NCBI GenBank assembly: GCA_937904325.1
Contig: CALGTK010000268.1
Coordinates: forward strand, 1 to 64,000
DNA: 64,000 nucleotides
DNA from: an uncultured Planctomyces sp.
GTDB lineage: Bacteria; Planctomycetota; Planctomycetia; Planctomycetales; Planctomycetaceae
Direction: 5' to 3'
The translations under genes and the position numbers were made by a program. The notes under the pieces are model-generated. The model was not told the DNA's origin and searched no databases. It saw only the letters and a program-made list of their open reading frames with translations. Below, piece by piece: positions 46,508 through 60,546 of this stretch. Numbering within the stretch: the first letter of the stretch is position 1; each line of letters begins with the position of its first letter.

Positions 46508-47794
46508 TCAGGCGGCAAACTCACGGAAGATTAGCGATACGTTCTGTCCGCCAAAACCGAAGCTGTTCGATAGGCAAGTAGTCACTTTGGTCTCGCGAGG
46601 CTGGTTCGCGATGTAGTCCAGATCGCAAACCGGATCCGGAGTTTCGTAATTGATCGTTGGCGGAAGCACACTTCTGTTGATTGCCAACAGGCAAGTGATC
46701 GCTTCGACGCTGCCGGCAGCGGCAATCAGGTGCCCCATCATGCTCTTGATACTGGAAACCGGTGTTCCCAGAGCATACTCACCCAGCGCCTGCTTGCAGG
46801 CCAGAGTCTCAACCTGGTCGTTGACCTTTGTACTGGTACCGTGAGCGTTGATGTAGTCAATGCTGTCGGTGTTGACGCCGGCATCGTTCAGGGCCATGCG
46901 GATGCAGGCTGTCGCTCCGCGGCCTTCCGGATGAATGTCGGTCACTCGGTAAGCATCGGCCGTTGAGCCGTAACCTGCGAGTTCGCCATAAATCTTCGCT
47001 CCGCGTGCCTGGGCATGTTCGAGTTCTTCGAGGATTAGAATTCCCGCTCCTTCGCCAAGGACGAATCCGTCGCGATTTTTGTCGAACGGTCGCGAGGCTT
47101 CCTGCGGGTTTTCGTTGTGCGTCGAAAGTGCGGTCAGCAAGTTAAAGCCTGTCAGACCGAACGGATGAATCATGCTGTGCGCACCGCCGGAGATCATGAC
47201 ATTCGCGTCGCCACGACGGATCATCTCGGTGGCTTCGCCGATCGCCTGACTCGATGCCGCACAGGCTGTCAGGCAGTTCATGTTTGGACCTTGAGCGTTG
47301 AACAAACTCGCCAGATGCCCGGCGGTCATGTTCGGTTCCTGCTCGAGTTCTGACTCTGCGTGAAGCTGCTCCATGCCGAGGCGAGCGAACGCTTCGAGAT
47401 CCACTTCGTCGTCCACGCGTGCCTGAGCGATCAGGCCCATGAACAGGTTGAAGTCCTGAGCACCTTCGCCGGCTCCGAGATAGACGCCAAACGTCGATGG
47501 GTCGAGATTCTTCATATCCTGAAGGCCTGAGTCGTTCATCGCCTCAGTTGCCGCACCGATGGCGAAGTGGATATTCCGGCCGGCGTATTTGAAGCGTTCG
47601 GCATTGTCGATGTAGTTCGTCAGGTCGAAATCCTTGACCTGCGATGCAAACTTCGTCGGAAACTTCGAAGCATCGAAATATGAAATCCAGTCGATTCCGC
47701 TGCGGCACTCCATCATGGAATCCCACATCGTATCGAGCGTCTTCCCGACGGGTGTCATGCAGCCCATGCCTGTAACAACGACTCGGCGTCTCAT
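46508..47794 (-). CDS. fabF: Beta-ketoacyl-ACP synthase (FabF-like)
   Basis: This 428-residue condensing enzyme elongates an acyl chain with malonyl-ACP. The start at 47794 (MRRRVVVTGMGCMTPVG) fits the family; a longer frame adds 20 unrelated residues. The catalytic triad is present: Cys178 in CLTACAASS, His318 in NAHGTST and His355 in KSMMGHLIAAAG. It is the last gene of a leftward cluster with two dehydratases, a ketoreductase and an ACP, all within 4 kb. No malonyl transacylase or enoyl reductase is present, so the cluster must borrow them or make an unsaturated or otherwise modified chain. The intergenic gap upstream carries a repeat. Confidence 0.92.
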   Translation of the reverse strand: MRRRVVVTGMGCMTPVGKTLDTMWDSMMECRSGIDWISYFDASKFPTKFASQVKDFDLTNYIDNAERFKYAGRNIHFAIGAATEAMNDSGLQDMKNLDPSTFGVYLGAGEGAQDFNLFMGLIAQARVDDEVDLEAFARLGMEQLHAESELEQEPNMTAGHLASLFNAQGPNMNCLTACAASSQAIGEATEMIRRGDANVMISGGAHSMIHPFGLTGFNLLTALSTHNENPQEASRPFDKNRDGFVLGEGAGILILEELEHAQARGAKIYGELAGYGSTADAYRVTDIHPEGRGATACIRMALNDAGVNTDSIDYINAHGTSTKVNDQVETLACKQALGEYALGTPVSSIKSMMGHLIAAAGSVEAITCLLAINRSVLPPTINYETPDPVCDLDYIANQPRETKVTTCLSNSFGFGGQNVSLIFREFAA

Positions 47795-47834
47795 TGCTCG
47801 GTCCTCGAGAATCGTAAACCTGTACGAGGAAATT

Positions 47835-47899
47835 GTAGGGTGGGCACCGCCCACCGTAATATCAGAAAGTCAGCAATTGGTGGGCAATGCCCACCCTAC
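47835..47899. repeat. Intergenic palindromic repeat (GTAGGGTGGGCA type)
   Basis: Two 21-bp arms, GTAGGGTGGGCACCGCCCACC and its near-complement ending GCCCACCCTAC, differ at two positions and are separated by 23 bases. Each arm is itself hairpin-prone (TGGGC...GCCCA). It lies between the second dehydratase gene and fabF of the same cluster. It resembles REP-like dispersed elements. Confidence 0.85.
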
Positions 47900-47918
47900 G
47901 GTCATAATTTGAGACGAA

Positions 47919-48398
47919 TTAAGTTCCGTCTCCGGCCTGTCCGACATCCAAGATGCCCAACAGATTCATCGAGAACACAAAGTTCTTCTGATCAATCGCT
48001 CCGAACTGCGAATTCTTCTGGTCGAGATGCACGAACATGATCTCGGCCTCAGCCACCAATCGGTCACCGACATACGCGGTCACATCGACACCACCGCCTT
48101 CGTCACGAGCGTCCGTTAACGTCGCCGTGTAAACCAGCGAATCGCCAGGCACTGCCCACGAGTGGAACGTGACCTTGGGGACTTTCGCCAGAATGACGAT
48201 GTGTTCAAAGTCATTGACTTCACCGAGCAGAATGCCGCCCGTTTGAGCCATCCCTTCGATCATCAACGAACCCGGCATAATCGCAAAACCGGGGAAGTGA
48301 TCGTGCAGGTGCTCTTCGGCCAGGCTGACATTCTTGACAGCTTTGGCAAACTTGCCGCTTTCGAATTCGACGAATCGATCGATCCAGAACCAGCGCAT
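47919..48398 (-). CDS. Second 3-hydroxyacyl-ACP dehydratase (FabZ-like)
   Basis: This 159-residue hotdog-fold protein has the FabZ-type catalytic motif DHFPGFAIMPGSLMIEGMAQTGG with His34 and Glu48. It removes water from 3-hydroxyacyl-ACP to give trans-2-enoyl-ACP. It is paralogous to the gene at 50066-50545: the two share KNxSLAEExLxDHFPGFA and place the catalytic residues at identical positions. The substitution MIEGMAQ against MVEACVQ may shift chain-length preference. The C-terminal tail (about 30 residues, ending ILDVGQAGDGT) is longer than usual and not conserved in its paralogue. It lies between the ACP and fabF genes. Confidence 0.87.
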   Translation of the reverse strand: MRWFWIDRFVEFESGKFAKAVKNVSLAEEHLHDHFPGFAIMPGSLMIEGMAQTGGILLGEVNDFEHIVILAKVPKVTFHSWAVPGDSLVYTATLTDARDEGGGVDVTAYVGDRLVAEAEIMFVHLDQKNSQFGAIDQKNFVFSMNLLGILDVGQAGDGT

Positions 48399-48549
48399 GT
48401 GACTTACCTTGAACCGTGACCCGTTGGTTCATCAGGAGAAACTACGACGAACTGACGCTGAGTCGCAAAGACTCGCCAGGTGAAATGCTCACCGGCGAAA
48501 GGAATATCTTTGCGAAACTCTGCGTCTTCGTGACTTAGCATCCGAAGAA

Positions 48550-48939
48550 CTAGCCAGCGTTCAGCTTGTTCTCGACGAAGTTCGTGATCATGTTGACCGT
48601 AAACAGACTCTGAATATTTTCGACTTTCGGATCGTTCGCGAAAGAATCGATGTCGGCGTGCGGCATCTTCTCTTTCAGAGTGGCAATACCTTCTGCGGTC
48701 ACTTTGCCGTCGTCGACGAACGATGCGTCGGCAGCGAGGTTTTCCGGGAACAGTTCACCTCGTGGAATTTTGATTCCGAAGTTCTTTTCAAGACGGAAGA
48801 CAATGTCCAGAAAATCGATGGACTCAGCTCCGAGGTCATCGACCAGCGTTGCTTCTTCCGTTACTTCGTCGTCGTCGACCCCCAGCGCGTCAACCAGAGT
48901 TTCCTGAACTTTTTCAAAGATTTCGTCGCGTGATGCCAT
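48550..48939 (-). CDS. Acyl carrier protein, unusually long (129 residues)
   Basis: The ACP domain spans about residues 1-60: DEIFEKVQETLVDALGVDDDEV is followed by LVDDLGAESIDFLDIVFRLEKNFGIKIPRGELFPE. Ser40 in GAESID is the expected 4'-phosphopantetheine site, in place of the DSLD of housekeeping ACPs. A normal ACP has about 80 residues; here an extra segment of about 45 residues (VDDGKVTAEGIATLKEKMPHADIDSF onward) lies between the first half and the C-terminal ITNFVENKLNAG. It carries the growing chain of the surrounding cluster. The GAESID form and extension suggest a specialised carrier rather than AcpP of primary lipid synthesis. Confidence 0.9.
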   Translation of the reverse strand: MASRDEIFEKVQETLVDALGVDDDEVTEEATLVDDLGAESIDFLDIVFRLEKNFGIKIPRGELFPENLAADASFVDDGKVTAEGIATLKEKMPHADIDSFANDPKVENIQSLFTVNMITNFVENKLNAG

Positions 48940-49147
48940 CTGGCCATCTCCTCAGAGTTGGGGCTGTTGGACCCCGTTTGTTTCGCCGCAGACCCAGCTT
49001 GTTCTGTCATCAGTCCGGCGAAACAACTGCTGACTCGAACCAGAAATATCAATTTCAGATTGCCTGACCGGGCTCTCTGAAAACCTGCCACAAGTGCAGG
49101 AGACCCACAAAACTATTCTCTATTCTTACTACTTCCAAACCGCGAAC

Positions 49148-49903
49148 TTACATTCCGCTGCCGAGCGTCAGTCCGCCATCAACCGTCAAAACCTGGCCGG
49201 TGATGTATGACGCGTCGTCGCTTGCAAGAAACAACGTGGCGTTGGCAATATCTTCAGGCTCTCCGAGACGTCGGACAGCAATCTGTTTTTTGATTTCTTT
49301 TCCGGCCGCGTTTCGAATCGCTTCGGTCATGTCCGTAGCGATAAAGCCCGGAGCGATCGAGTTGACCGTGATCTTTCGCTTGCCCATTTCGTAGGCGAGA
49401 CAACGACTGAATCCGTCGATGCCACCCTTGGTCGCGGCGTAGTTTGTCTGTCCAGGATTTCCGTATCGACCGGCAACGCTGGAGATATTGACAATTCGAC
49501 CATACCGAGCTGACATCATGTGCTGCACTGCCGCTTTGCAGTAGTGGTACATGCTGTTGAGGTTTGTATTGATAACGTCCATCCACTCGTCTTCGCCCAT
49601 GCGGACAAGCAGGTTGTCGCGAATGATGCCAGCGTTGTTGACGAGAATGTCGATCTTTTCCCATTTCTCGACGACTTCGTTGACGACTTCGACAGCTCGT
49701 TCACCGTTGGCGGCGTCGGCCTGAAAAGCAAGCCCTTCGCGCTGGTCAAGTTCTAACTCTTTGGTCAGAGCATCGGCAGCTTCTTTGTTCGAATTATAAG
49801 TGAAGGCGACTTTCGCACCCTCTTTGGCCAGAGCGTGAACAACGGCTCGACCGATTCCGCGGCTACCACCCGTCACGAGCGCTGTCTTGCCTGCCAGTTT
49901 CAT
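49148..49903 (-). CDS. fabG: 3-oxoacyl-ACP reductase
   Basis: FabG reduces 3-oxoacyl-ACP with NADPH. The 251-residue short-chain dehydrogenase has the nucleotide-binding TGGSRGIGRA at 11-20 and NNAG at 89-92. The catalytic residues are Ser142, Tyr155 and Lys159 (NISSVAGRYGN and YAATKGG). C-terminal VDGGLTLGSGM closes the fold. It sits between the first dehydratase gene (162 bp upstream) and the ACP gene (208 bp downstream), all leftward. Length and motifs match housekeeping FabG. Confidence 0.93.
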   Translation of the reverse strand: MKLAGKTALVTGGSRGIGRAVVHALAKEGAKVAFTYNSNKEAADALTKELELDQREGLAFQADAANGERAVEVVNEVVEKWEKIDILVNNAGIIRDNLLVRMGEDEWMDVINTNLNSMYHYCKAAVQHMMSARYGRIVNISSVAGRYGNPGQTNYAATKGGIDGFSRCLAYEMGKRKITVNSIAPGFIATDMTEAIRNAAGKEIKKQIAVRRLGEPEDIANATLFLASDDASYITGQVLTVDGGLTLGSGM

Positions 49904-50065
49904 AGTTGTCTCCTCAAGGCCGCCGCTTCGCGATCAGCGGAGCGTATCCGTTTTCCTGAAAGCTCGATATGTGATACCGAACTGCGAAGTCTCTTTATTA
50001 AACTGCGAAGTGGTTTTTCAATTCAACTCGGACGATTTCGCCAGTGTACTTCTTCGTGTTTGTAA

Positions 50066-50545
50066 TTACTCAGCTGGCGGTTGCCAGACCTGAGCGTACA
50101 GCTCTTTCATCTTGCCGATGAGGTATTCGTCGATATTCGCCTGCGACTCGTTCCGGTCCCGCAGGTTGAGCTGCGACAGGGTGATCCGAGCGGAAACTGC
50201 CGACTCACCATCGACCGTGCTCGAAGCCTTGAAAGTACACTCTTCATCGCCCCACTTGTGAGTCTTGATTTTGACCACAAGTTGCTTACCAGGTGTCACG
50301 AAACTATTGAATTTGATCGCTTTCGCCTGTTTGAGCAACACAGTCGAATACTTGAAGTCTTCGGTCGCCCGCATCAGCCAGGCACCCGACTGAACGCAGG
50401 CCTCGACCATCAGTACCCCTGGCATCACGGCGAAGCCCGGAAAGTGATCCTGCAAATACTCTTCAGCGAGTGAAAGATTCTTTACCGTCGTGATCGACTG
50501 ACCTTTGTCAAGCTCATCGATTCTGTCAACAAGTGAAAAACGCAT
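50066..50545 (-). CDS. fabZ: 3-hydroxyacyl-ACP dehydratase (FabZ-like), first gene of the cluster
   Basis: The 159-residue hotdog-fold protein starts at the ATG at 50545 (MRFSLVDRIDEL), which aligns with FabZ N-termini; an upstream ATG adds 12 unrelated basic residues. Catalytic motif DHFPGFAVMPGVLMVEACVQSG places His34 and Glu48 as in its paralogue. It dehydrates 3-hydroxyacyl-ACP. Being first in the leftward cluster it probably follows the promoter in the gap at 50546-51161. Confidence 0.88.
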   Translation of the reverse strand: MRFSLVDRIDELDKGQSITTVKNLSLAEEYLQDHFPGFAVMPGVLMVEACVQSGAWLMRATEDFKYSTVLLKQAKAIKFNSFVTPGKQLVVKIKTHKWGDEECTFKASSTVDGESAVSARITLSQLNLRDRNESQANIDEYLIGKMKELYAQVWQPPAE

Positions 50546-51161
50546 CCGGAACGCCCTGAAAACGAAACGGTTTCTTCGCAAAACCGCCTGTCAGACATCG
50601 ACAAAGACAACCTGAAGATTCTGGAGGCTCCGCTGAAACATCGACCAGGCTGGCGATGAGAAAACAGACTCTCCGGCGTCTTCGTTTGTCGGGAAAAGTT
50701 CACACTCGAGTATTTACTGCGAGGATCTCGATCAACTTGCGTACCCAGCGTGTCCGATCGAAAATTGCAGAAAACAATGGCGAAAGTGACTCGCATTGTC
50801 TGAAAGGAGCACGAAAAGGCATGACCCAGCTATGCCTCGCCGCGCAGCGACTCCGCGGTAGGATGGAAAGGACACCACTTTACCCACGGCAGAATGCCGT
50901 TTCAAGGCCACGGAATGCCTGAAACTGCTGCCCATTCCTTGCGACCTGACATCCTGCCACGCCTGCCGGTTGTGCCGTTTATGAAACGATCGAAACCGTC
51001 ACGCTCTCCGTGATTGGAACCACGAATGGACACCAATAAACACAAATTCCTTAAACGTCGCCCCAGAAATCATTCGTGTCCATTCGTGGTTCGTTTAAAG
51101 TCTGCAAAACTCGGAAACATAAGCCAGATTCTGTAATCGCGAGTTTGCACCGGAGACCTCG
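50546..51161. other. Intergenic region holding a dispersed-type repeat
   Basis: About 616 bp separate the fatty-acid cluster from the DUF6817 gene. Apart from the inverted repeat at 51017-51092 and a GGAG ribosome-binding site before 51162 I see no gene or RNA. The cluster promoter should lie near 50550-50700. Confidence 0.45.
51017..51092. repeat. Inverted repeat of the GAACCACGAATGGACAC type
   Basis: Arms GAACCACGAATGGACACCAAT (51017-51037) and ATTCGTGTCCATTCGTGGTTC (51072-51092) pair at 20 of 21 positions around a 34-base loop. Within each arm the CGAATGGACAC unit is partly repeated. The element lies at the left boundary of the accessory region. Confidence 0.85.
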
Positions 51162-51698: not shown

Positions 51699-51712
51699 TC
51701 GATCTCAACATT

Positions 51713-52132
51713 CAATGTGATAAGACGGTCCACAGCTTTTCAGGTGTAGCGGAAGTCGTGAGGCTTCCGGATCAACGTGCCTGCATTCTCACGAATCCAG
51801 CTACTAATGAAAGATTCGAAAGTCGCCCGATCCATCTCGTTGCTCAGCAGAAGTGGCTTAAGCAGCAACTCCGCGATGCGAAAGCTGCAAAGGCCAGGCA
51901 TATCCTGCTGTTTCAGCATCACCCATTGTTTCTGACAAAAGAGAATGAGCCAGATCAATACTTCAACATCCCACTTGTGCGAAGAACACCTTTGCCTGAA
52001 CAATTGAAACAGGCGGACGTCCGAACCGTCTTCGCAGGCCACTATCATCGCAATGCCTGCGGTCGAGCAGGAGCCATGGAAATGATCACCGCCGGACCGG
52101 TGGGCAGGCATCCCGCCGCGGAAGCTGGTTGA
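51713..52132 (+). pseudogene. Truncated metallophosphoesterase (CPPED1-like) remnant
   Basis: The frame encodes AQQKWLKQQLRDAKAAKARHILLFQHHPLF, EPDQYFNIPLVRR and VRTVFAGHYHRNACGRAGAMEMITAGPVG. These match the C-terminal half of calcineurin-like phosphoesterases of the CPPED1 group, including the GHYHRN metal-binding histidines. The N-terminal half with the D-x-H and GD/GNH metal sites is missing, no start codon fits, and the C-terminus is cut at HPAAEAG. It is therefore a fragment, not an active enzyme. It lies between the DUF6817 gene and a transposase-like remnant. Confidence 0.75.
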
Positions 52133-52158
52133 GTTTCTCGTGAACGATCGAGTTGCCA

Positions 52159-52314
52159 ATGCTGTTAATGCTCCAGCCCTGCCACATTCTGCTTGCCGCC
52201 CTCATTGGCCAGACCAACGAACGCCAGCGGCGGATCATCAAGTTCCAGAATGACCAGATCGAAGCGTTGCTGAAAGCTCACGGCATCGAACCGGCAGCGG
52301 TCACAGTCATATGA
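52159..52314 (+). pseudogene. Probable transposase/integrase-core N-terminal remnant
   Basis: A 51-codon frame contains GQTNERQRRIIKFQNDQIEALLKAHG. This resembles the N-terminal helix (IxxQxxxIExLxxxLG) of integrase-core transposases frequent in planctomycetes. The expected continuation into the helix-turn-helix and DDE domains is absent: the frame ends after EPAAVTVI. It marks decayed mobile DNA immediately before the GntR promoter. The identification rests on a short match and should be treated with caution. Confidence 0.5.
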
Positions 52315-52337: not shown

Positions 52338-52365
52338 TTGACAAGTAATCCCGGTATTGGATAAC
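52338..52365 (+). promoter_or_regulatory. Promoter of the GntR-PSD1-DUF1501-enolase operon
   Basis: A perfect TTGACA -35 box (52338-52343), a 16-bp spacer and GATAAC (-10, four of six matches to TATAAT, 52360-52365) precede the regulator ATG at 52419. Transcription would start near 52372, inside the palindrome described next. Confidence 0.55.
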
Positions 52366-52381
52366 TTTCACCTATCCAATA
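52355..52381. promoter_or_regulatory. Operator palindrome for the GntR-family regulator
   Basis: TATTGGATA and TATCCAATA are perfect 9-bp inverted arms separated by nine bases (ACTTTCACC). The element overlaps the -10 box and the predicted transcription start of the regulator's own operon, a classic place for a repressor. Dimeric GntR/FCD regulators bind such dyads. Binding by this protein is inference. Confidence 0.65.
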
Positions 52382-52418
52382 CATATCCACAACTTGTTTC
52401 CGGCAGTGAAGTTTCATC

Positions 52419-53045
52419 ATGTCCCAACCAGTCATGCTGTTTGAGAAGCTTCGTGATGACATTGTCGCGGGCAACCTCTCACCCGGTACGCGGCTACCTC
52501 AGCAACGAATTGCGAAGAAGTATGAGGTTAGCAAGGTACTCACGGTTGCTGCCTTTGCCAGACTGGAGGCTGCCGGACTTGTGGAAAGCGCGCTTGGTGA
52601 GGGTGTTCGGGTCCGCACGATCGATCGCGAGATGCTTGAGGAATCATACATCTTTCGTGAGGCGATCGAGGCACAGGCCATTCGAGAGGCGTGCGATCAC
52701 GCCAGCGATCGAGAGGTCGCGGAACTGAGGGGCCTGTCGGCACTGATGGAAGCGGCTGAGGAGCAGAAAGCGATCCGCATGGATCAGGAATTTCATCTGA
52801 AGATCGCGAAGATGAGCCGTTGCCAGCGACTTGTGAAAGAACTCAAACAACTCCATCTGCTGCAGATGTTCGTCAGCCAGGTGACGGTCGGTGCTCGTGT
52901 TGGAGTTTGGCCTTTCTCACACATGCATCTTGTCGAGCCGATCGAAAAGCGAGATCCGCTCGCAGCCGAAGAGCAAATGCGTTCTCACATACAGACGGCC
53001 CGCAAGAATGGCATTCAGGCTTTTCTGGAGAGTCGGTCAGCATGA
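52419..53045 (+). CDS. GntR-family regulator with FCD ligand-binding domain
   Basis: The 208-residue protein has an N-terminal winged helix (about 8-70: LFEKLRDDIVAGNLSPGTRLPQQRIAKKYEVSK... ARLEAAGLVES) and a C-terminal all-helical FCD domain (about 75-200). The FCD metal/effector residues are suggested by DQEFHLKIA and HMHLVEPIEKRDPLAAEEQMRSHI. FCD regulators usually sense small organic acids or sugar acids. It is the first gene of the operon, sharing four bases (ATGA) with the PSD1 gene. It probably represses its own operon through the palindrome at 52355-52381, releasing on binding a substrate or product of the downstream enolase-superfamily enzyme. Confidence 0.9.
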   Translation: MSQPVMLFEKLRDDIVAGNLSPGTRLPQQRIAKKYEVSKVLTVAAFARLEAAGLVESALGEGVRVRTIDREMLEESYIFREAIEAQAIREACDHASDREVAELRGLSALMEAAEEQKAIRMDQEFHLKIAKMSRCQRLVKELKQLHLLQMFVSQVTVGARVGVWPFSHMHLVEPIEKRDPLAAEEQMRSHIQTARKNGIQAFLESRSA

Positions 53046-56000
53046 AAAATGTGATTGGTGCCTTTGTAAGCCCAATGAGACATGCTCAGCAGCGTGTTTC
53101 AATGTGGCGCTGCGTTTTGGCAGGTGCAACGACATGGTTTCTGTTAATCGCGCCCATTTGTCGCGCGGAAAGCAACGAAGACTTCTTCGAAGCCCGCGTG
53201 CGGCCGCTGCTGGTCAAGCATTGTCTGGAGTGTCATGGAGCGAAGAAGCAGGAGGGTGGGTTGCGGCTCGATTCGCGCGACGCCTGGATACGGGGTGGAG
53301 ATCGCGGGGCAGCCATCAATGCGGGCCAGCCTGATCAGAGCTTGCTGATTGAAGCTGTGCGATATGACAATCCCGAATTAAAAATGCCGCCCGCAAAAAA
53401 GCTGACAGCAAAGGAGATCGCGGATCTCGAAGCCTGGATAAAACGCGGTGCGTTTGATCCCCGACGTGAATCAGCAGCACAGACCACGGCAAGAATGAGC
53501 CTGGAACAGGCACGCTCGTTTTGGTCGTTTCAACCTTTGAAAGCTCACGTTGTACCGCAAGACACCGGGGATCGCTGGTCGCGGGGTCCCATCGATGCCT
53601 TCGTTATTACTCAGTTGAAAAAACGCGGGTTGTCGCCCGTGGCCGATGCAGACCGCCGCACGTTGATCCGTCGAGCGACGTTTGATCTTACCGGACTTCC
53701 GCCCACACCGAGCGAGATTGACACGTTTCTGCGCGATGAATCTGCGAACGCATTCGAGTCATTGGTAGATCGCCTGCTTGAGTCAAAAGCCTATGGAGAA
53801 CGCTGGGGACGGCACTGGCTCGACGTGGCCCGGTATTCAGATACGGCGGGCGATGGAGCCGACTATCCAGTGCGTGAGGCTTGGAAGTATCGCGATTGGG
53901 TGATCGACGCCTTCAACAAGGACAAACCGTTTGACGAATTCGTCCGCGAGCAGATAGCCGGAGACATTCTCGCCCGTAATGGCTCGGCGGAGGAGTATGC
54001 CAGTCGTGTGACCGCAACAGGGTTTCTGGCGATCGGCAAACGCTACGGATACAAGGCGTCACCCGACTATCAGCATCTGGACTTCGCGGATGTGATCGAC
54101 ACGCTCGGTCGTTCGCTGCTGGGACTCTCGGTGGGTTGTGCTCGATGTCATGATCACAAGTACGACCCGGTATCGGCCGCTGACTACTATGCGCTGTACG
54201 GGATTATGGAAAGCACACAGTGGGCGTTTCCCGGTGGCGAAGAGCAAAAACGGCCGGCACACTTTCCGCCTCTCCTGCCGCCGAATGAGGTCGCGCGACT
54301 GGATAAGGAGAAAAGTGAAAACCTCGCCCGCATGGCCGCCGAAATCGCCGAACTGAAACGCGAGCGAGCACAATTCAGCCCGAACTTGCTGGCCGGTGGA
54401 GTAGACCTGGGATTCGAGGCTCAAGACGCCGGCAAACCACCCGGCAAACCCTGGTTCAGCGCCGGACCAATCGAAGTCACTGCCGATGCGCAAAGTCCCT
54501 TCGATCATGTCCATCCGAAAGGGAAACTGGGAGTGCGAATCGGCAGCGGCCAACCAACCGATGGGCTGCGATACGTTTTCGAAAACGGCTTGCGGGCCAC
54601 GCCTGAGAAGCAAATGCACTTCACGGTCGATTTCCGACCAGTCGCGACGTCCAGGGACCAAGGTGCATTTCGATTACTTCTAGGCCGAGGTGTCGCGCAG
54701 TCGCTGGCGGTTGAATGCAGCGCGACAGCTACGGAGTTTGCGATCCGCAACGGCGCGAAGTGGGAGACCATTCGAAAGATCACACCCGGTACGTGGTACA
54801 CGCTACAGCTGACGATTGACCCGGCCACGAAGACGTACTCCGGCATCGTTGGCACGCTCGATGACCTGACCGTCTTTCAAGATAAACAGACGAGTCCGAA
54901 CTGGGACGGCGTTGCCGACTGCTTCATCTGTGACGCGTTTGGGCATGTCGCTGGAGCGGCGTGTGCCCGAGATCTCGACAACGTCGGACTTCAGGAGACA
55001 GCTTTCGGCGCACCTGGCACTGGGCCAGTCACACCTCGAACCGTGAACCCGGCCGCGAAACAGCAGTTTGCAAAACTCGATGCCAAGATCAAGATCCTGA
55101 CTGCACGCCGTCAATCAGTTTCAACCCAGGCTGCTTACCCGGTCGCATACGGAGTTGCCGAAGGTTCGGCCATCAATGCGCGTCTGCAACAGCGTGGGGA
55201 GCCACACCGCCTCGGCGACGAAGTCCCGCGTCGGAATCTGGAAATACTCGGCGGCGATGTCGTTCCTGATGGCTCTGGCAGTGGTCGACTTGAACTGGCA
55301 AACTGGATCACTCGGTCCACGAATCCACTGACCGCTCGCGTTTTCGTGAATCGCGTCTGGCAATGGCATTTCGGCCAGGGGCTCGTCGCAACACCCAGCG
55401 ACTTTGGCTCGCGCGGCGAGCGACCGACACATCCGGAATTGCTCGACTGGCTGGCCGCTGAGTTCATCGCTTCGGAGTGGTCTGTAAAATTTATGCATCG
55501 TCTGATCATGAATTCGCGAACGTATCAACTGGCCAGCGTCGACAACGAAGCGAACCTCGCGGCTGACCCTGGCAATCGATGGCACTGGCGGTACTCACGA
55601 CGGTCGCTGAATGCCGAGTCAATCCGTGACGCAATGCTCGCAGTCAGTGGTCGACTTGATCGGAACGTTCCGCAATCGCACCCGTTTCCAGATGTGAATA
55701 CCTGGGGGTTCACCATCCATAAGCCGTTTCATGCGGTCTACGAATCGAATCATCGCAGTGTCTATTTGATGGTGCAGCGGAATCGACGGCATCCGTACAT
55801 GGCTTTGTTCGATGCCGCCGATCCCAATCAGAGCGTCGCAGCACGTCAGCCGACGACGACTCCCACACAAACTCTGTTTCTTATGAATTCGCCCTTTGTC
55901 CACGCACAGGCGGAGGGCTTCGCGCGGCGAATCGCTGCCGTATCGGGAGACGATCTCGCCAAAACATTGTGGGCATTTGAAACTGCGCACGGTCGAGTTC

Positions 56001-56152
56001 CAGCGGATGCCGTCGTCCAGGATGCCGTCGCGTTCGTGGCCGCGTATCGAGAGAAACTCGCGGATAAAGACAACAAGGAGCAGGACATCGCGCCGTGGTC
56101 AGCGCTCGCGCGAGTCTTGTTGACGAGTAATGCGTTTCTCTATGTCGACTAA
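53042..56152 (+). CDS. PSD1/DUF1549/DUF1553 protein with c-type haem motifs
   Basis: The 1036-residue exported protein starts at the ATG at 53042, overlapping the regulator's stop (ATGA). Its signal segment ends near LLIAPICRAES. The PSD1 domain has CLECH at 61-65. DUF1549 contains FDLTGLPPT and [11 protein letters not shown] with the second CxxCH at 366-370. The middle insert (about 440-640, VDLGFEAQDAG... LRYVFENGL... WYTLQLTID) is concanavalin-like but distinct from the LamG insert of the protein at 5042. DUF1553 at the C-terminus has [36 protein letters not shown]. It pairs with the DUF1501 gene that follows. Confidence 0.92.
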   Translation: MKNVIGAFVSPMRHAQQRVSMWRCVLAGATTWFLLIAPICRAESNEDFFEARVRPLLVKHCLECHGAKKQEGGLRLDSRDAWIRGGDRGAAINAGQPDQSLLIEAVRYDNPELKMPPAKKLTAKEIADLEAWIKRGAFDPRRESAAQTTARMSLEQARSFWSFQPLKAHVVPQDTGDRWSRGPIDAFVITQLKKRGLSPVADADRRTLIRRATFDLTGLPPTPSEIDTFLRDESANAFESLVDRLLESKAYGERWGRHWLDVARYSDTAGDGADYPVREAWKYRDWVIDAFNKDKPFDEFVREQIAGDILARNGSAEEYASRVTATGFLAIGKRYGYKASPDYQHLDFADVIDTLGRSLLGLSVGCARCHDHKYDPVSAADYYALYGIMESTQWAFPGGEEQKRPAHFPPLLPPNEVARLDKEKSENLARMAAEIAELKRERAQFSPNLLAGGVDLGFEAQDAGKPPGKPWFSAGPIEVTADAQSPFDHVHPKGKLGVRIGSGQPTDGLRYVFENGLRATPEKQMHFTVDFRPVATSRDQGAFRLLLGRGVAQSLAVECSATATEFAIRNGAKWETIRKITPGTWYTLQLTIDPATKTYSGIVGTLDDLTVFQDKQTSPNWDGVADCFICDAFGHVAGAACARDLDNVGLQETAFGAPGTGPVTPRTVNPAAKQQFAKLDAKIKILTARRQSVSTQAAYPVAYGVAEGSAINARLQQRGEPHRLGDEVPRRNLEILGGDVVPDGSGSGRLELANWITRSTNPLTARVFVNRVWQWHFGQGLVATPSDFGSRGERPTHPELLDWLAAEFIASEWSVKFMHRLIMNSRTYQLASVDNEANLAADPGNRWHWRYSRRSLNAESIRDAMLAVSGRLDRNVPQSHPFPDVNTWGFTIHKPFHAVYESNHRSVYLMVQRNRRHPYMALFDAADPNQSVAARQPTTTPTQTLFLMNSPFVHAQAEGFARRIAAVSGDDLAKTLWAFETAHGRVPADAVVQDAVAFVAAYREKLADKDNKEQDIAPWSALARVLLTSNAFLYVD

Positions 56153-56168
56153 GAATGAGCTGGAATTA

Positions 56169-57563
56169 ATGAATACATTTCCGACAACTCGCCGTGAGTT
56201 TCTGAGTCGCGCTTCGGGGGGCTTTGGCACACTCGCGTTGGCCGGCCTGTGCAGCGACCTGGAAGCGACTCCTGACAATCCACTGTCGCCGCGAATCGGT
56301 CACCACGAGGCGAAAGCCGACCGCGTGATCTTCCTCTATTCGACCGGAGGCACTTCGCACGTTGACACCTTCAATCATCGGCCGCAGTTAACGGCGGATC
56401 ACGGCAAATCCATTACGGCCTCGCGGTGGCTCAACAAATCCGGCGATTTCAAGCGGTTCCTGATCAAGCCGCGGTGGGCGTTCAAGCAGTACGGTCAAAG
56501 CGGTACGTGGGTGAGCGACCTGTTCCCGCATCTTGGTTCGGTCATCGACGACGTCTGTGTGCTCAATGCCATGCACTGTGAGAGTGATGGGCACGATAAA
56601 GCGACGCTTGCAGCCCATACGGGGTCGGCGCAGTTCGCACGCCCGAGCGCCGGTTCCTGGGTGAGCTACGGACTGGGAACCGTCAATCAGAACCTCCCCT
56701 CGTTCATGGTGCTGGCCCCCGCCGCACCGTACGCTGGAGCACAGACATGGGGCAGCGATTTTCTACCTGGGTGTCATCAGGGAACTCACGTAATCCCCAG
56801 CAAAGAACCGTTGCCGAATATTCGCCCACGCGTTCCAAACCCCGAACTGCAGCAGATGGAACTCACGCTGCTCGGTCGAATGAACAAGGCACATCTCAAA
56901 CGCCGTGCCGCAGATCAATCGCTCGAAGCCCGAATTCGATCATTCGAAACCGCATTCGGAATGCAGCGTGAAGCGCCCGAGGCTTTCGATCTCTCCGAAG
57001 AAACAGAAGACACCCTGCGTCTATACGGACTGCCGCGCGGCGCGACAAGCGGCTTCGGCTGGCAATGTCTCGTCGCCCGAAGACTGGCCGAGCGTGGCGT
57101 ACGGTTTCTTGAGCTGATTGATGTCGGCTCCAGCGGGAACTGGGATTCGCACGGAAACATGGGTGATCACGAGCGGCTTGCCAAAGCAATCGACAAGCCG
57201 ATTGCCGGCCTGCTCACCGATCTCAAGCAACGAGGCATGCTCGACAGGACGCTCGTCGTCTGGACGACCGAATTTGGTCGCACTCCATTCAACGCGAAGG
57301 CGAATCACGCAGGGCGCGAACACCACAACCTCTGCTTCTCGTCATGGATGGCCGGAGGTGGTGTGGAAGGCGGCATCGTCCACGGCCAATCTGATGAATA
57401 CGGCATTCTGACAGCCGAAGACGCCGTTCATACTCATGATCTGCACGCCACAATGCTGCATCTCATGGGACTCGATCATGAGAGGTTAACCTACCGCTAT
57501 GCGGGGCGCGATTTCCGTTTGACGGACGTGCATGGACGCGTCGTGCAGGAGCTTCTGAACTAA
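56169..57563 (+). CDS. DUF1501 protein with Tat leader
   Basis: The 464-residue protein begins MNTFPTTRREFLSRASGGFGTLALAG, a clear twin-arginine leader. I chose the ATG at 56169 because it puts RR eight residues from the start; ATGs at 56142 and 56130 would overlap the upstream gene's end. Conserved DUF1501 segments include FLYSTGGTSHVDTFNH, AMHCESDGHDKATLAAHTGSAQF, VVWTTEFGRTPF, GREHHNLCFSSWMAGGGVEGG and LHATMLHLMGLDHERLTYRY. It is 16 bp downstream of its PSD1 partner and 89 bp before the enolase-family gene. As in the first pair, the reaction is unknown. Confidence 0.92.
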   Translation: MNTFPTTRREFLSRASGGFGTLALAGLCSDLEATPDNPLSPRIGHHEAKADRVIFLYSTGGTSHVDTFNHRPQLTADHGKSITASRWLNKSGDFKRFLIKPRWAFKQYGQSGTWVSDLFPHLGSVIDDVCVLNAMHCESDGHDKATLAAHTGSAQFARPSAGSWVSYGLGTVNQNLPSFMVLAPAAPYAGAQTWGSDFLPGCHQGTHVIPSKEPLPNIRPRVPNPELQQMELTLLGRMNKAHLKRRAADQSLEARIRSFETAFGMQREAPEAFDLSEETEDTLRLYGLPRGATSGFGWQCLVARRLAERGVRFLELIDVGSSGNWDSHGNMGDHERLAKAIDKPIAGLLTDLKQRGMLDRTLVVWTTEFGRTPFNAKANHAGREHHNLCFSSWMAGGGVEGGIVHGQSDEYGILTAEDAVHTHDLHATMLHLMGLDHERLTYRYAGRDFRLTDVHGRVVQELLN

Positions 57564-57652: not shown

Positions 57653-58771
57653 ATGAAGATTGATCAGATCGTTTGCCAGGTATTGCGTTCCAAGTCGGTG
57701 ACGAACAAAACAGCCAGTTGCCAGGATCTGGTACTGGTTCGAGTACGGACAGATGACGGGCTCGAAGGGATCGGCGAAGCGGATTCATCCCCGGAGGTCG
57801 TGAAAGCCATCATTGATGCCCCCTTCTCTCATAACATCGCTTGTGGCCTGCGAGAGATCCTGATTGGCGAGAACCCTCTCGAAACGGGAAGGCTCTGGGA
57901 AAAGATGCTTCGGCAAACGATGTACTTTGGCCGAAGCAGTGTGACAATCACCGCGATGAGTGCCATCGACATGGCTCTCTGGGATCTGAAGGGGAAACAT
58001 TTTGGCGAGCCGATTCATCGATTGCTTGGTGGCAAACGACACGATCGTTTTCGAGCCTATGCTTCCATTCTGTTCGGGAAGGATAAAACGGAAACCAGGG
58101 ACATTGGAGCACGATGGATTGATAATGGCTATTCGGCGGTCAAGTTCGGCTGGGAACCGATGGGCGAGTCAGAGCGCGTCGATCTGGACCTTGTCGCCGG
58201 AGCTCGTGAAGGAATCTCCGATGCCACCTTGCTGGTTGATGCTGGCTGCGTCTGGGATGCTCGAACGGCATTGCGTCGAGCGCACGCTTTCTCTGAATTC
58301 AACGTGGAATGGCTGGAAGAACCGCTGCGCCCGGACGATGTGGCGGGGTACGCATGGCTGCGGGATCGTTCGCCAATACCGATCGCTGCCGGTGAAGAAG
58401 AATGTGGCCGGAACGCATTCCGGTCGTTGATTGATGCCAACGCGCTGGATGTTTACCAGATTGACATCGCTCGAAACGGATTCACCGACGCCAGCTATCT
58501 CTCGCAACGCATCGAAGAAATCGGCGCGCGGCCCTGCAACCATTGTTACACCAGCCCGCTCACTGAAGCGGCAAGTCTGCATTGGTTAAGCACTTGCCGT
58601 GACGCATTCCTATTTGAGGATTGTGTGGAAGATGAACCAATGCGGCATGAGTTAGCGATCGAAAAGATTCAGGCTGAGGATGGATGGATCGACGTACCGG
58701 ACCGACCTGGACTCGGAGTGACTCTTAACGAAGATTTTGTAGCCGCGCATGTCGTGGCACAATCAGAGTAA
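57653..58771 (+). CDS. Mandelate racemase/muconate-lactonizing-type enzyme (enolase superfamily)
   Basis: The 372-residue protein has the enolase-superfamily capping domain (1-120) and barrel. Metal ligands are Asp196 (LLVDAGCVWD), Glu222 (EWLEEPLRP) and Glu248 (AAGEEECG). Catalytic candidates are Lys164 in AVKFGW, Asp271 in YQIDIARNG and His297 in NHCYTSPL. This Lys plus His/Asp set fits acid-sugar dehydratases or racemases that abstract a proton next to a carboxylate. It closes the GntR operon, so the likely effector is a sugar acid. The exact substrate cannot be read from the sequence. The frame and length are intact. Confidence 0.9.
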   Translation: MKIDQIVCQVLRSKSVTNKTASCQDLVLVRVRTDDGLEGIGEADSSPEVVKAIIDAPFSHNIACGLREILIGENPLETGRLWEKMLRQTMYFGRSSVTITAMSAIDMALWDLKGKHFGEPIHRLLGGKRHDRFRAYASILFGKDKTETRDIGARWIDNGYSAVKFGWEPMGESERVDLDLVAGAREGISDATLLVDAGCVWDARTALRRAHAFSEFNVEWLEEPLRPDDVAGYAWLRDRSPIPIAAGEEECGRNAFRSLIDANALDVYQIDIARNGFTDASYLSQRIEEIGARPCNHCYTSPLTEAASLHWLSTCRDAFLFEDCVEDEPMRHELAIEKIQAEDGWIDVPDRPGLGVTLNEDFVAAHVVAQSE

Positions 58772-59029: not shown

Positions 59030-59220
59030 GTGACATTTGAAACGATCGATGCAGTGATTGAGCGGGCCGGAGAACGATTGTCCGAAAATGCCAACCTCGT
59101 TGACGAACTGGAGCGGCGGGGCAAGGAACGGCAGCTGATTTTCAAGACGATGCTGATGACCGGACTCCGAAAGAAAGAGCTGTCATCCGTCAGACTGCGG
59201 AACCTTGATTTCGAAATAAG
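59030..59220 (+). pseudogene. Tyrosine-recombinase (integrase) remnant
   Basis: The frame encodes VERAGERLSENANLVDELERRGKERQLIFKTMLMTGLRKKELSSVRLRNLDFE-like sequence in short segments. The part RQLIFKTMLMTGLRKKELSSV matches the first catalytic-arginine region (TGLRxxEL) of tyrosine recombinases of the type common in planctomycetes. The rest of the catalytic domain (HxxR, Tyr) is missing and the frame runs directly into a DUF6817 remnant. It is evidence of former mobile DNA at the right side of the GntR operon. Confidence 0.6.
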
Positions 59221-59292
59221 ATTCTCGCCGAACAACTCGAAAGCATCGCCGTGGAATTCCGTGTCGCCGCATACGCCAACGAGTCCGCCTGA
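59221..59292 (+). pseudogene. DUF6817 C-terminal remnant (second copy)
   Basis: In frame, ILAEQLESIAVEFRVAAYANESA followed by a stop matches the C-terminus LAEQLGGIALDSYNAAYADESA of the intact gene at 51162-51698. The DNA match over 59225-59296 is 58 of 72 bases (about 80 percent), including the stop codon and the following GATCGA-type bases' start. The junction with the integrase remnant is abrupt, so a deletion or insertion joined them. Confidence 0.75.
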
Positions 59293-59406
59293 TCGAACTG
59301 TCCATACTTCAGTCAACTCGACACTGCGACGAGACTACCGGCAGCTTGCACATCTCCCCGTACACTCGCATCATGTCGGGGTTTGTCCGGCCCCGTGAAT
59401 AAGGTA

Positions 59407-59477
59407 ACCCGACGCCTCAGCCTGGGACATGAATTCCCGGATCCTGCTGGAATCCGTCCCAGGCTGACGCATCGGGT
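59407..59477. repeat. Inverted repeat ACCCGACGCCTCAGCCTGGGAC
   Basis: Two 22-bp arms match at 20 positions (ACCCGACGCCTCAGCCTGGGAC against GTCCCAGGCTGACGCATCGGGT) around a 27-base centre. It lies between the DUF6817 remnant and the histidine-kinase pseudogene. The form resembles dispersed REP-like elements, and other genomic copies are expected. Confidence 0.8.
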
Positions 59478-59556
59478 GATCACAGGATGCGAGTGCAAAA
59501 AGCTATTTAGATTAGACACAAAAGTTGTCCGGCTGCCGCTCACCGTGGAATTAGAC

Positions 59557-60546
59557 ATGAAGGTACGCACAAAATATGCCAGCCTCGATTCAGCTGAGCT
59601 GGCTCAAGCGGCGTTCCGAGAAAGCGACGACCGATTTCGTCAACTTGCCGAGCACGTTCGCGACGTCTTCTGACTGTTGGATGTGGCAACTGGCCGCGTG
59701 CTGTACCTCAACGACGCGTTCAAAGCGACCTTCAGCCGCCCACCAATTCGGTTGACGATCATCGCGAGAAGTGGCTCGGAGCAGCCCGCTCCGATGACCG
59801 TTCCAGAATCAAGGCCCTTCAATCATCTGTCGCAGAAGGAGCGGACCGTTGGGACGTTGAATATCGAATCATCCGGCCTGACGGCGACGTTCGCTGGCTT
59901 CACAAACGGACCTTTCCGGTTGCCACACTACGTGGAGCCACGTTTCGCATCGCTGGAATCGCCGAGGCTATCACCACTCTCAAGAAATCGCTCGAAGAAA
60001 ACACTCACTACGAGGCCCAGCTTCAGAAACTGACGCGCGAACTCGACCAGGCTCGCGAAAAAGAACAGCACCGCATCGTGGAAAGTCTGCACCACGACGT
60101 TGGACAGAATCTTGCCGTCATTCGAATCCGTCCAGGGCAGCTCGGGAAAGAGCTTCCGGCCGAGCAGAAGGAATTCCTCAAATCGACGGCCGAATTTATT
60201 CAACAAACGATCGTCTCAACTCGCAACCTGATGGTCAAGTTGAGCCCTGCACCGCTTTACGAACGCGGCTTCTGGCCGGCAGTCGACCGACTGGCGAGTC
60301 AGGTGACCGCCCAGTCCGGCATCGAAGTCGGCTGCGAAGATCTCTGTCCGGAAACTAAAGTCAATCTCGACACAGCCATCGCACTGTTCCAAATCGTCCG
60401 AGAGCTGCTGCATAGCGACGTCAAACATTCCGGCATGAAGGCAGGCCGTCGTTCGACAGTTCGTCGAATATGACTAACTCGTCATTCGGGTCAAAGACAA
60501 CGGGTTCGGCTTCGAACCGCTGGCAACCTGCGAACCGATATCCTGA
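59557..60546 (+). pseudogene. PAS-domain histidine kinase pseudogene
   Basis: Starting at ATG 59557 the frame gives ESDDRFRQLAEHVRDVF, then a TGA stop (59671-59673) where PAS domains have Trp, followed by LLDVATGRVLYLNDAFKAT. A frameshift at about 59736-59751 leads to VDDHREKWLGAARSDDR... YRIIRPDGDVRWLHKRTFPV (PAS end). A dimerisation/H-box segment follows (EKEQHRIVESLHHDVGQNLAV, histidine near 60090). The kinase N-box is damaged (IVRELLHSDVKHSG). Another shift (about 60430-60460) and a TAA (60475-60477) precede VIRVKDNGFGFEP, the ATP-binding G-box. At least four lesions make this clearly non-functional. Confidence 0.85.

Follow-up and report, generated by a model that had tools for sequence, protein, structure and literature searches.

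A tandem 11-bp dyad array as the probable self-operator of a planctomycete GntR/FCD regulator

Described operators of GntR/FCD regulators

VanR is a GntR/FCD regulator, and the direct GGTATA repeats of NanR follow one another at steps of 8–9 bp. In E. coli, three FCD dimers of NanR bind cooperatively to (GGTATA)3, and binding is weakened by wider spacing, which provides a solved precedent for adjacent FCD dimers; the cooperativity requires a 32-residue N-terminal extension (PMC8012715). Suvorova et al. (2015) described extra half-sites 7–12 nt from the palindromes of GntR-family regulators and left their role open (PMC4494728). The canonical GntR/FadR operator is NyGTM-N0-1-KACNy, and Arg45 of FadR reads a G (PMC4494728, Table 1). 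The VanR operator, VanO, has the sequence ATTGGATCCAAT (quoted in PMC7970624). Atu1419 of Agrobacterium fabrum is an FCD repressor that acts on its own region through 10-bp palindromes, one of them between its own −35 and −10 elements (PMC7797058).

We analyzed a 64,000-nucleotide stretch of DNA from an uncultured Planctomyces sp. (contig CALGTK010000268.1), referred to here as the window. A promoter in this window carries what is very probably, judging from comparison of sequences, the self-operator of the GntR/FCD regulator downstream: a tandem array of dyads at 11-bp steps, on which stacked dimers would repress their own operon. As with NanR, the protein is a GntR/FCD repressor by type and closely spaced repeats cover the promoter, three in the window and four in the orthologous locus L033. 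However, the NanR repeats are direct GGTATA hexamers, whereas those found here and in related clades are dyads (GGATATCC, GATATATC, TGTTCGAACA) spaced by exactly 11 bp, and the window protein lacks the extension of about 32 residues, its GntR domain being preceded by 6 residues and starting at residue 7 of 208. Its match to the NCBIfam NanR model reached 48 bits against a cut-off of 260. The system thus differs from NanR in the spacing of its sites and in the absence of the N-terminal extension.

The arrangement described by Suvorova et al. is similar in that a main palindrome is accompanied by additional boxes, at distances that include 11 nt, but there a single main site is flanked by a weaker box, on one side or on both (PMC4494728), whereas in these planctomycete clades two to four similarly strong sites keep a strict 11-bp register. 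The VanO half-site ATTGGA/TCCAAT equals the arms in the window; however, the VanO half-sites abut, giving a core of GGATCC, while here GGATATCC forms the core, and the orthologues do not conserve the ATT/AAT flank. The resemblance beyond GGAT is therefore probably a coincidence. In the case of Atu1419, a tetramer loops together sites separated by 190 bp (PMC7797058), whereas the sites described here are adjacent, and the Arg45 with which both Atu1419 and FadR read a G is replaced by Lys39 in the clade of the window protein. The best sequence match in the PDB, 7XP0/7XP1, is distant (E = 1.4e-14); it has the GntR/FCD architecture in common with the window protein, but its recognition helix, SRGPLREA, keeps the usual Arg, while the corresponding helix here is SKVLTVAA. 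Our searches for publications on planctomycete GntR/FCD regulators returned none.

The regulator, its operon and its promoter

The regulator gene (52419–53045, + strand) encodes a protein of 208 amino acids, the presumed ligand of the array. Both domains scored above the Pfam cut-offs (FCD, E = 3.6e-18, 66.6 bits against 24.3; GntR, E = 1.2e-11, 44.5 bits against 27), in agreement with an earlier, sequence-only reading of the locus, which had placed such a regulator downstream of a dyad. Residues D122, H126, H168 and H190 in the predicted FCD metal site align with Asp and His residues of 7XP0; in FCD proteins, such residues are the metal ligands. The three histidines are invariant in A3, while D122 is replaced by His in clade B. 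Since the metal-site residues are kept, a small acid ligand for the FCD domain is plausible. An AlphaFold model (three sequences) had a mean pLDDT of 62 and a pTM of 0.35 and was set aside. Close homologues of the regulator were found in three other genomes, with 88% identity in G088 (locus L032), 76% in G080 (L004) and 77% in a Rubripirellula sp. (L033); among the relatives that have a name, the closest bear the labels Planctomycetaceae and Rubripirellula. At this level of identity (76–88%) the regulator occurs in only 3 of 170 family genomes, each belonging to another genus, and the patchy distribution (G000, G080, G088 and L033) suggests horizontal spread.

The start of the next gene (53042–56152, +), for a PSCyt1/PSCyt2/PSD1 (DUF1549/DUF1553) protein, overlaps the regulator stop codon (ATGA, 53042–53045). 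A PSCyt/PSD1 gene also follows the regulator in G080, and in G088 as far as the contig reaches. It is followed by a gene for a DUF1501 protein (56130–57563, +), presumably a member of the operon, with a similar frame in G080. The third gene after the regulator (57653–58771, +), a possible operon member, encodes an enolase-superfamily (Pfam MR_MLE) protein resembling acid-sugar dehydratases. Its best NCBIfam match was gluconate/galactonate dehydratase (3.2e-44, 151 bits, with the cut-off at 750), and it fell below every curated cut-off. In L033 (8624–13009), the same regulator and array precede a gene for a DMFA2_C and DUF7133 fusion of >1460 amino acids, not PSCyt/PSD1; there, the cargo of the regulator cassette has been exchanged. 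The genes downstream vary from one relative to another, so that what is conserved as a target is the promoter of the regulator itself; the operator persists there in spite of the exchange in L033, as in an autoregulated operon. A sugar-acid inducer, suggested by the dehydratase-like MR_MLE gene in the neighborhood, is a guess, because this enolase neighbor scored far below its cut-off and the cargo in L033 is different.

On the − strand, 46508–50581 holds a fatty-acid-synthase-like cluster (ketoacyl synthase, FabA-like dehydratases, acyl-carrier-like protein and FabG-type reductase) of the kind found in specialized lipid or polyene clusters. The interval that separates the DUF6817 gene from the promoter (51700–52312) contains apparent gene remnants, with a phosphoesterase-like HHPLF...GHYHRN and a possible IS-like tail; the open frame there had no Pfam match. 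On the far side of the operon, 59030–60473 contains short frames that include a tyrosine recombinase-like fragment (Phage_integrase, E = 0.004, below the cut-off) and perhaps parts of a sensor kinase. Such debris lies on both sides of the operon, as if the latter had been inserted as a cassette.

The −35 element TTGACA, noted previously, was read directly at 52338–52343 (+) and is invariant in all four orthologous promoters. GATAAC, which had been assigned as the −10 element at a spacing of 16 bp, is probably misplaced, since the same register gives 15 bp in the three orthologues. TANNNT-like hexamers are found 2 bases further on: TAACTT in the window (52362–52367, +), 18 bp after TTGACA, and TACCCT, TATGCA and TATCTT in the orthologues, at 17 bp each. 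The true −10 element thus probably lies 2 bp downstream of the GATAAC register, with TAACTT as the likely hexamer in the window and a predicted transcription start at about 52374. A sigma-70 scan did not list this promoter, and both −10 registers fell below the scan threshold.

Dyads at 11-bp steps

The sequence-only reading had described the operator as a perfect 9+9 bp palindrome. This dyad, TATTGGATA-N9-TATCCAATA, is present with zero mismatches at 52355–52381, and its arms extend to 10+10 bp, GTATTGGATA-N9-TATCCAATAC (52354–52363 and 52373–52382; 52354–52382 overall, without strand), combining the left half of site 1 with the right half of site 2 of the array described below. Compared to random sequence with the same dinucleotide make-up, however, such repeats are unremarkable: the window contains 6 centers of perfect 9+9 inverted repeats with a gap of ≤20, against an expectation of 5.7 ± 1.6, and 3 perfect 10+10 repeats against 1.6. 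The 9+9 palindrome alone is at chance level and not significant, and the case must therefore come from comparison. A genome search for the motif, proposed in the same reading, returned one occurrence at ≤3 mismatches in the 8-Mb assembly (a draft of 488 contigs and 8.0 Mb), which is the known copy; the expectation of zero for the dyad applies to one particular motif, picked after the fact. This whole-genome search at ≤3 mismatches gave no sign of a regulon beyond the operon itself.

Upstream of the ATG, the four orthologous promoters (all that were present in the collections reached, from homologues that are not independent samples) could hardly be aligned except for TTGACA and GGATA-N9-TATCC-N6-TATCC, of which one half is degenerate (TACTC) in L033. 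The promoter of a further locus, L061 in G607, is the same as that of L033. The conserved block spans 52359–52388, past the end of the reported feature, and the ATT/AAT flanks of the reported arms are not conserved among the orthologues. All 15 bases of the block are found exactly in each of G000, G080 and G088, solely at this promoter. When ≤2 mismatches were allowed in the three genomes, the extra matches were few and scattered, and were taken as chance in view of the 1–3 matches per genome given by a reversed-pattern control.

The block corresponds to an array of dyads with the consensus GGATATCC (extended form TGGATATCCA) and centers exactly 11 bp apart, which starts at the −10 element of the TTGACA promoter and ends about 30 bp before the ATG. 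There are three sites, or four in L033, and none is assigned a strand. Site 1 (GGATAACT, 52359–52366) lies on the −10 element and matches the consensus in 6 of 8 positions; its left half, GGATA, is invariant in all four promoters. Site 2 (ACCTATCC, 52370–52377; 5 of 8), 11 bp from site 1, lies around the predicted start and has an intact right half, which is TATCC in three of the four orthologues and TACTC in L033, while L032 carries the full GGATATCC. Site 3 (ACATATCC, 52381–52388; 6 of 8) follows 11 bp from site 2, beyond the reported dyad; its TATCC is invariant in all four, and L033 has the full GGATATCC there. The site scores, out of 8, are 6, 5 and 6 in the window; 7, 8 and 7 in L032; 7, 6, 8 and 7 in L033; and 7, 6 and 7 in L004. 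The window's own sites, with one good half each, are therefore the weakest of the four promoters, and two of the orthologue sites form perfect palindromes. For steps of 11 bp, the core match totalled 17, 22, 21 and 20 of 24 in the four promoters, compared to 10–15 at steps of 8–10 and 12–15 bp, and was reached by 1, 0, 0 and 0 of 2000 shuffles, respectively. In the site table, the left halves (GGA) from site 2 onward, which are the less conserved ones, matched at 17 of 27 positions, where a quarter would be expected; the sites are thus dyads and more than half-sites.

In other clades, 30–37% identical to clade A, the site sequences differ (GATATATC; TGTTCGAACA) and the 11-bp period is the same. 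Clade B sites read GATATATC-gcc-GATATATC in L005 and GATATATCATC/AGTATCACTCC/GGTATATCATC in L007, and clade B members repeatedly read near G(A/G)TATATC-N3-G(A/G)TA(T/G)ATC. The clade C sites of L049 are TGTTATGACAG/TGCTCGAACAG/TGCAAG, with L006, L008 and L044 alike. A direct-repeat test on ten promoters from the three clades, using shuffles that preserved dinucleotides, gave z = 6.7 at lag 11 and z = 4.3 at lag 22, with no other lag raised between 6 and 30. Lag 11 was then predicted in advance for seven new close homologues (eight found by profile, minus L061, a duplicate of L033), and scored 8.0 against 5.87 ± 0.38 (z = 5.7; 0 of 2000 shuffles, which in this case preserved base composition only). 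Lag 22 was not raised in this held-out set, as expected if most members carry two sites. The shuffle statistics ignore kinship among the homologues, and a better argument than the shuffle z is that three clades agree in spite of their different site letters. A dyad-based lag test was noisier, with several other lags high, mostly via the strong clade C palindromes, and the conclusion on the period is consequently drawn from the direct-repeat test together with the explicit site tables. Among 21 more distant homologues there was nothing at lag 11 (z = 1.4); the 11-bp array is not general to the FCD regulators here. In L050–L055 (41–48% identical to clade C), the regulator mostly lies close behind another gene, without a separate promoter. 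Strong dyads with different spacing were seen at the FCD-homologue promoters of L012/L013, L030 and L045, for example ATCATCGATGAT and CTATAATTTA-N5-TAAATTATAG.

It is unlikely that a single dimer uses the long dyad TATTGGATA-N9-TATCCAATA as its only operator, even though the 10+10 symmetry is perfect in the window genome and, within the window, site 1 is intact on its left and site 2 on its right. The arms outside GGATA/TATCC are not conserved, and in L033 the N9 pair is without its TATCC partner, although a full GGATATCC lies one turn further on. A single dyad also leaves the invariant third TATCC unexplained, and perfect 9+9 repeats are no commoner than chance. In the related clades, compact dyads of 8–10 bp occur at 11-bp steps and N9-spaced arms do not, and known FCD operators are likewise compact, such as the 10-bp palindrome of Atu1419 (PMC7797058).

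Binding of the array by some other regulator, either a nucleoid protein or another transcription factor, is quite improbable. The variation of the downstream genes among relatives would be compatible with such a factor, but the exact array is found solely beside the GntR/FCD regulator in each genome, and the half-site varies from one regulator clade to the next against a constant 11-bp period, as expected of a co-evolving self-operator. In the four orthologues, the GGATATCC sites have the form GA...TC, and the canonical GT...AC inner pair does not occur. At the position of FadR Arg45, the window clade has Lys39 and the related clades have Tyr/Phe or Ile/Met. Changes in the recognition helix go along with changes in site sequence, which argues that the regulator, and not another factor, reads the array.

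An RNA hairpin formed by the inverted repeat (an attenuator or mRNA leader structure), which the arms could form if both were transcribed (−12.3 kcal/mol) and which the strong fold of the L033 leader (z = −3.2) might suggest, was rejected as highly improbable on the fold z-scores and the position of the left arm, which lies on the −10 element upstream of the predicted start, and would hence fall outside the transcript: from 52374 onward folding is unremarkable (z = +0.4), the orthologue structures differ, those other than L033 having a z near −1, and dyad arrays give some pairing for free.

Proposed stacking of dimers and autorepression

The proposal that the regulator represses its own promoter and is cotranscribed with its targets is well supported by the footprint shared across relatives and the single genomic copy; its form, however, had to be revised from a 9+9 palindrome to an 11-bp array. 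Autorepression is thus supported as a prediction by the comparative evidence, and we infer that the regulator binds cooperatively, with one dimer on each site, that it represses the promoter and that it responds to a ligand. Site 1 would cover the −10 element, site 2 the predicted start and site 3 a position about 10 bp into the transcript, so that occupancy of the array should block RNA polymerase. Being one turn apart, the sites would all point to one side of the helix, with the dimers placed next to one another. Two to four regulator dimers on neighboring sites could in this way jointly exclude RNA polymerase from one face of the DNA, and the regulator and the co-transcribed PSCyt/PSD1, DUF1501 and enolase genes would be kept at a low level until the FCD domain takes up a small acid ligand. 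Since the 32-residue extension of NanR is absent, either the contacts between dimers must differ or the gain comes from multiplicity alone.

The extra sites at this promoter appear to be full partners in a strict register, with a phase that is conserved while the sequence changes. The array yields motif models for planctomycete GntR/FCD regulators and poses a testable question, namely whether stacking of FCD dimers without the NanR extension sets the strength of repression. On a wider view, to which we give even weight for and against, a planctomycete branch of GntR/FCD regulators without the base-reading Arg may have moved from a single palindrome to 11-bp arrays of two to four sites, in which repression would come from lateral stacking of dimers, and the period would be conserved while the sequence drifts with the recognition helix.
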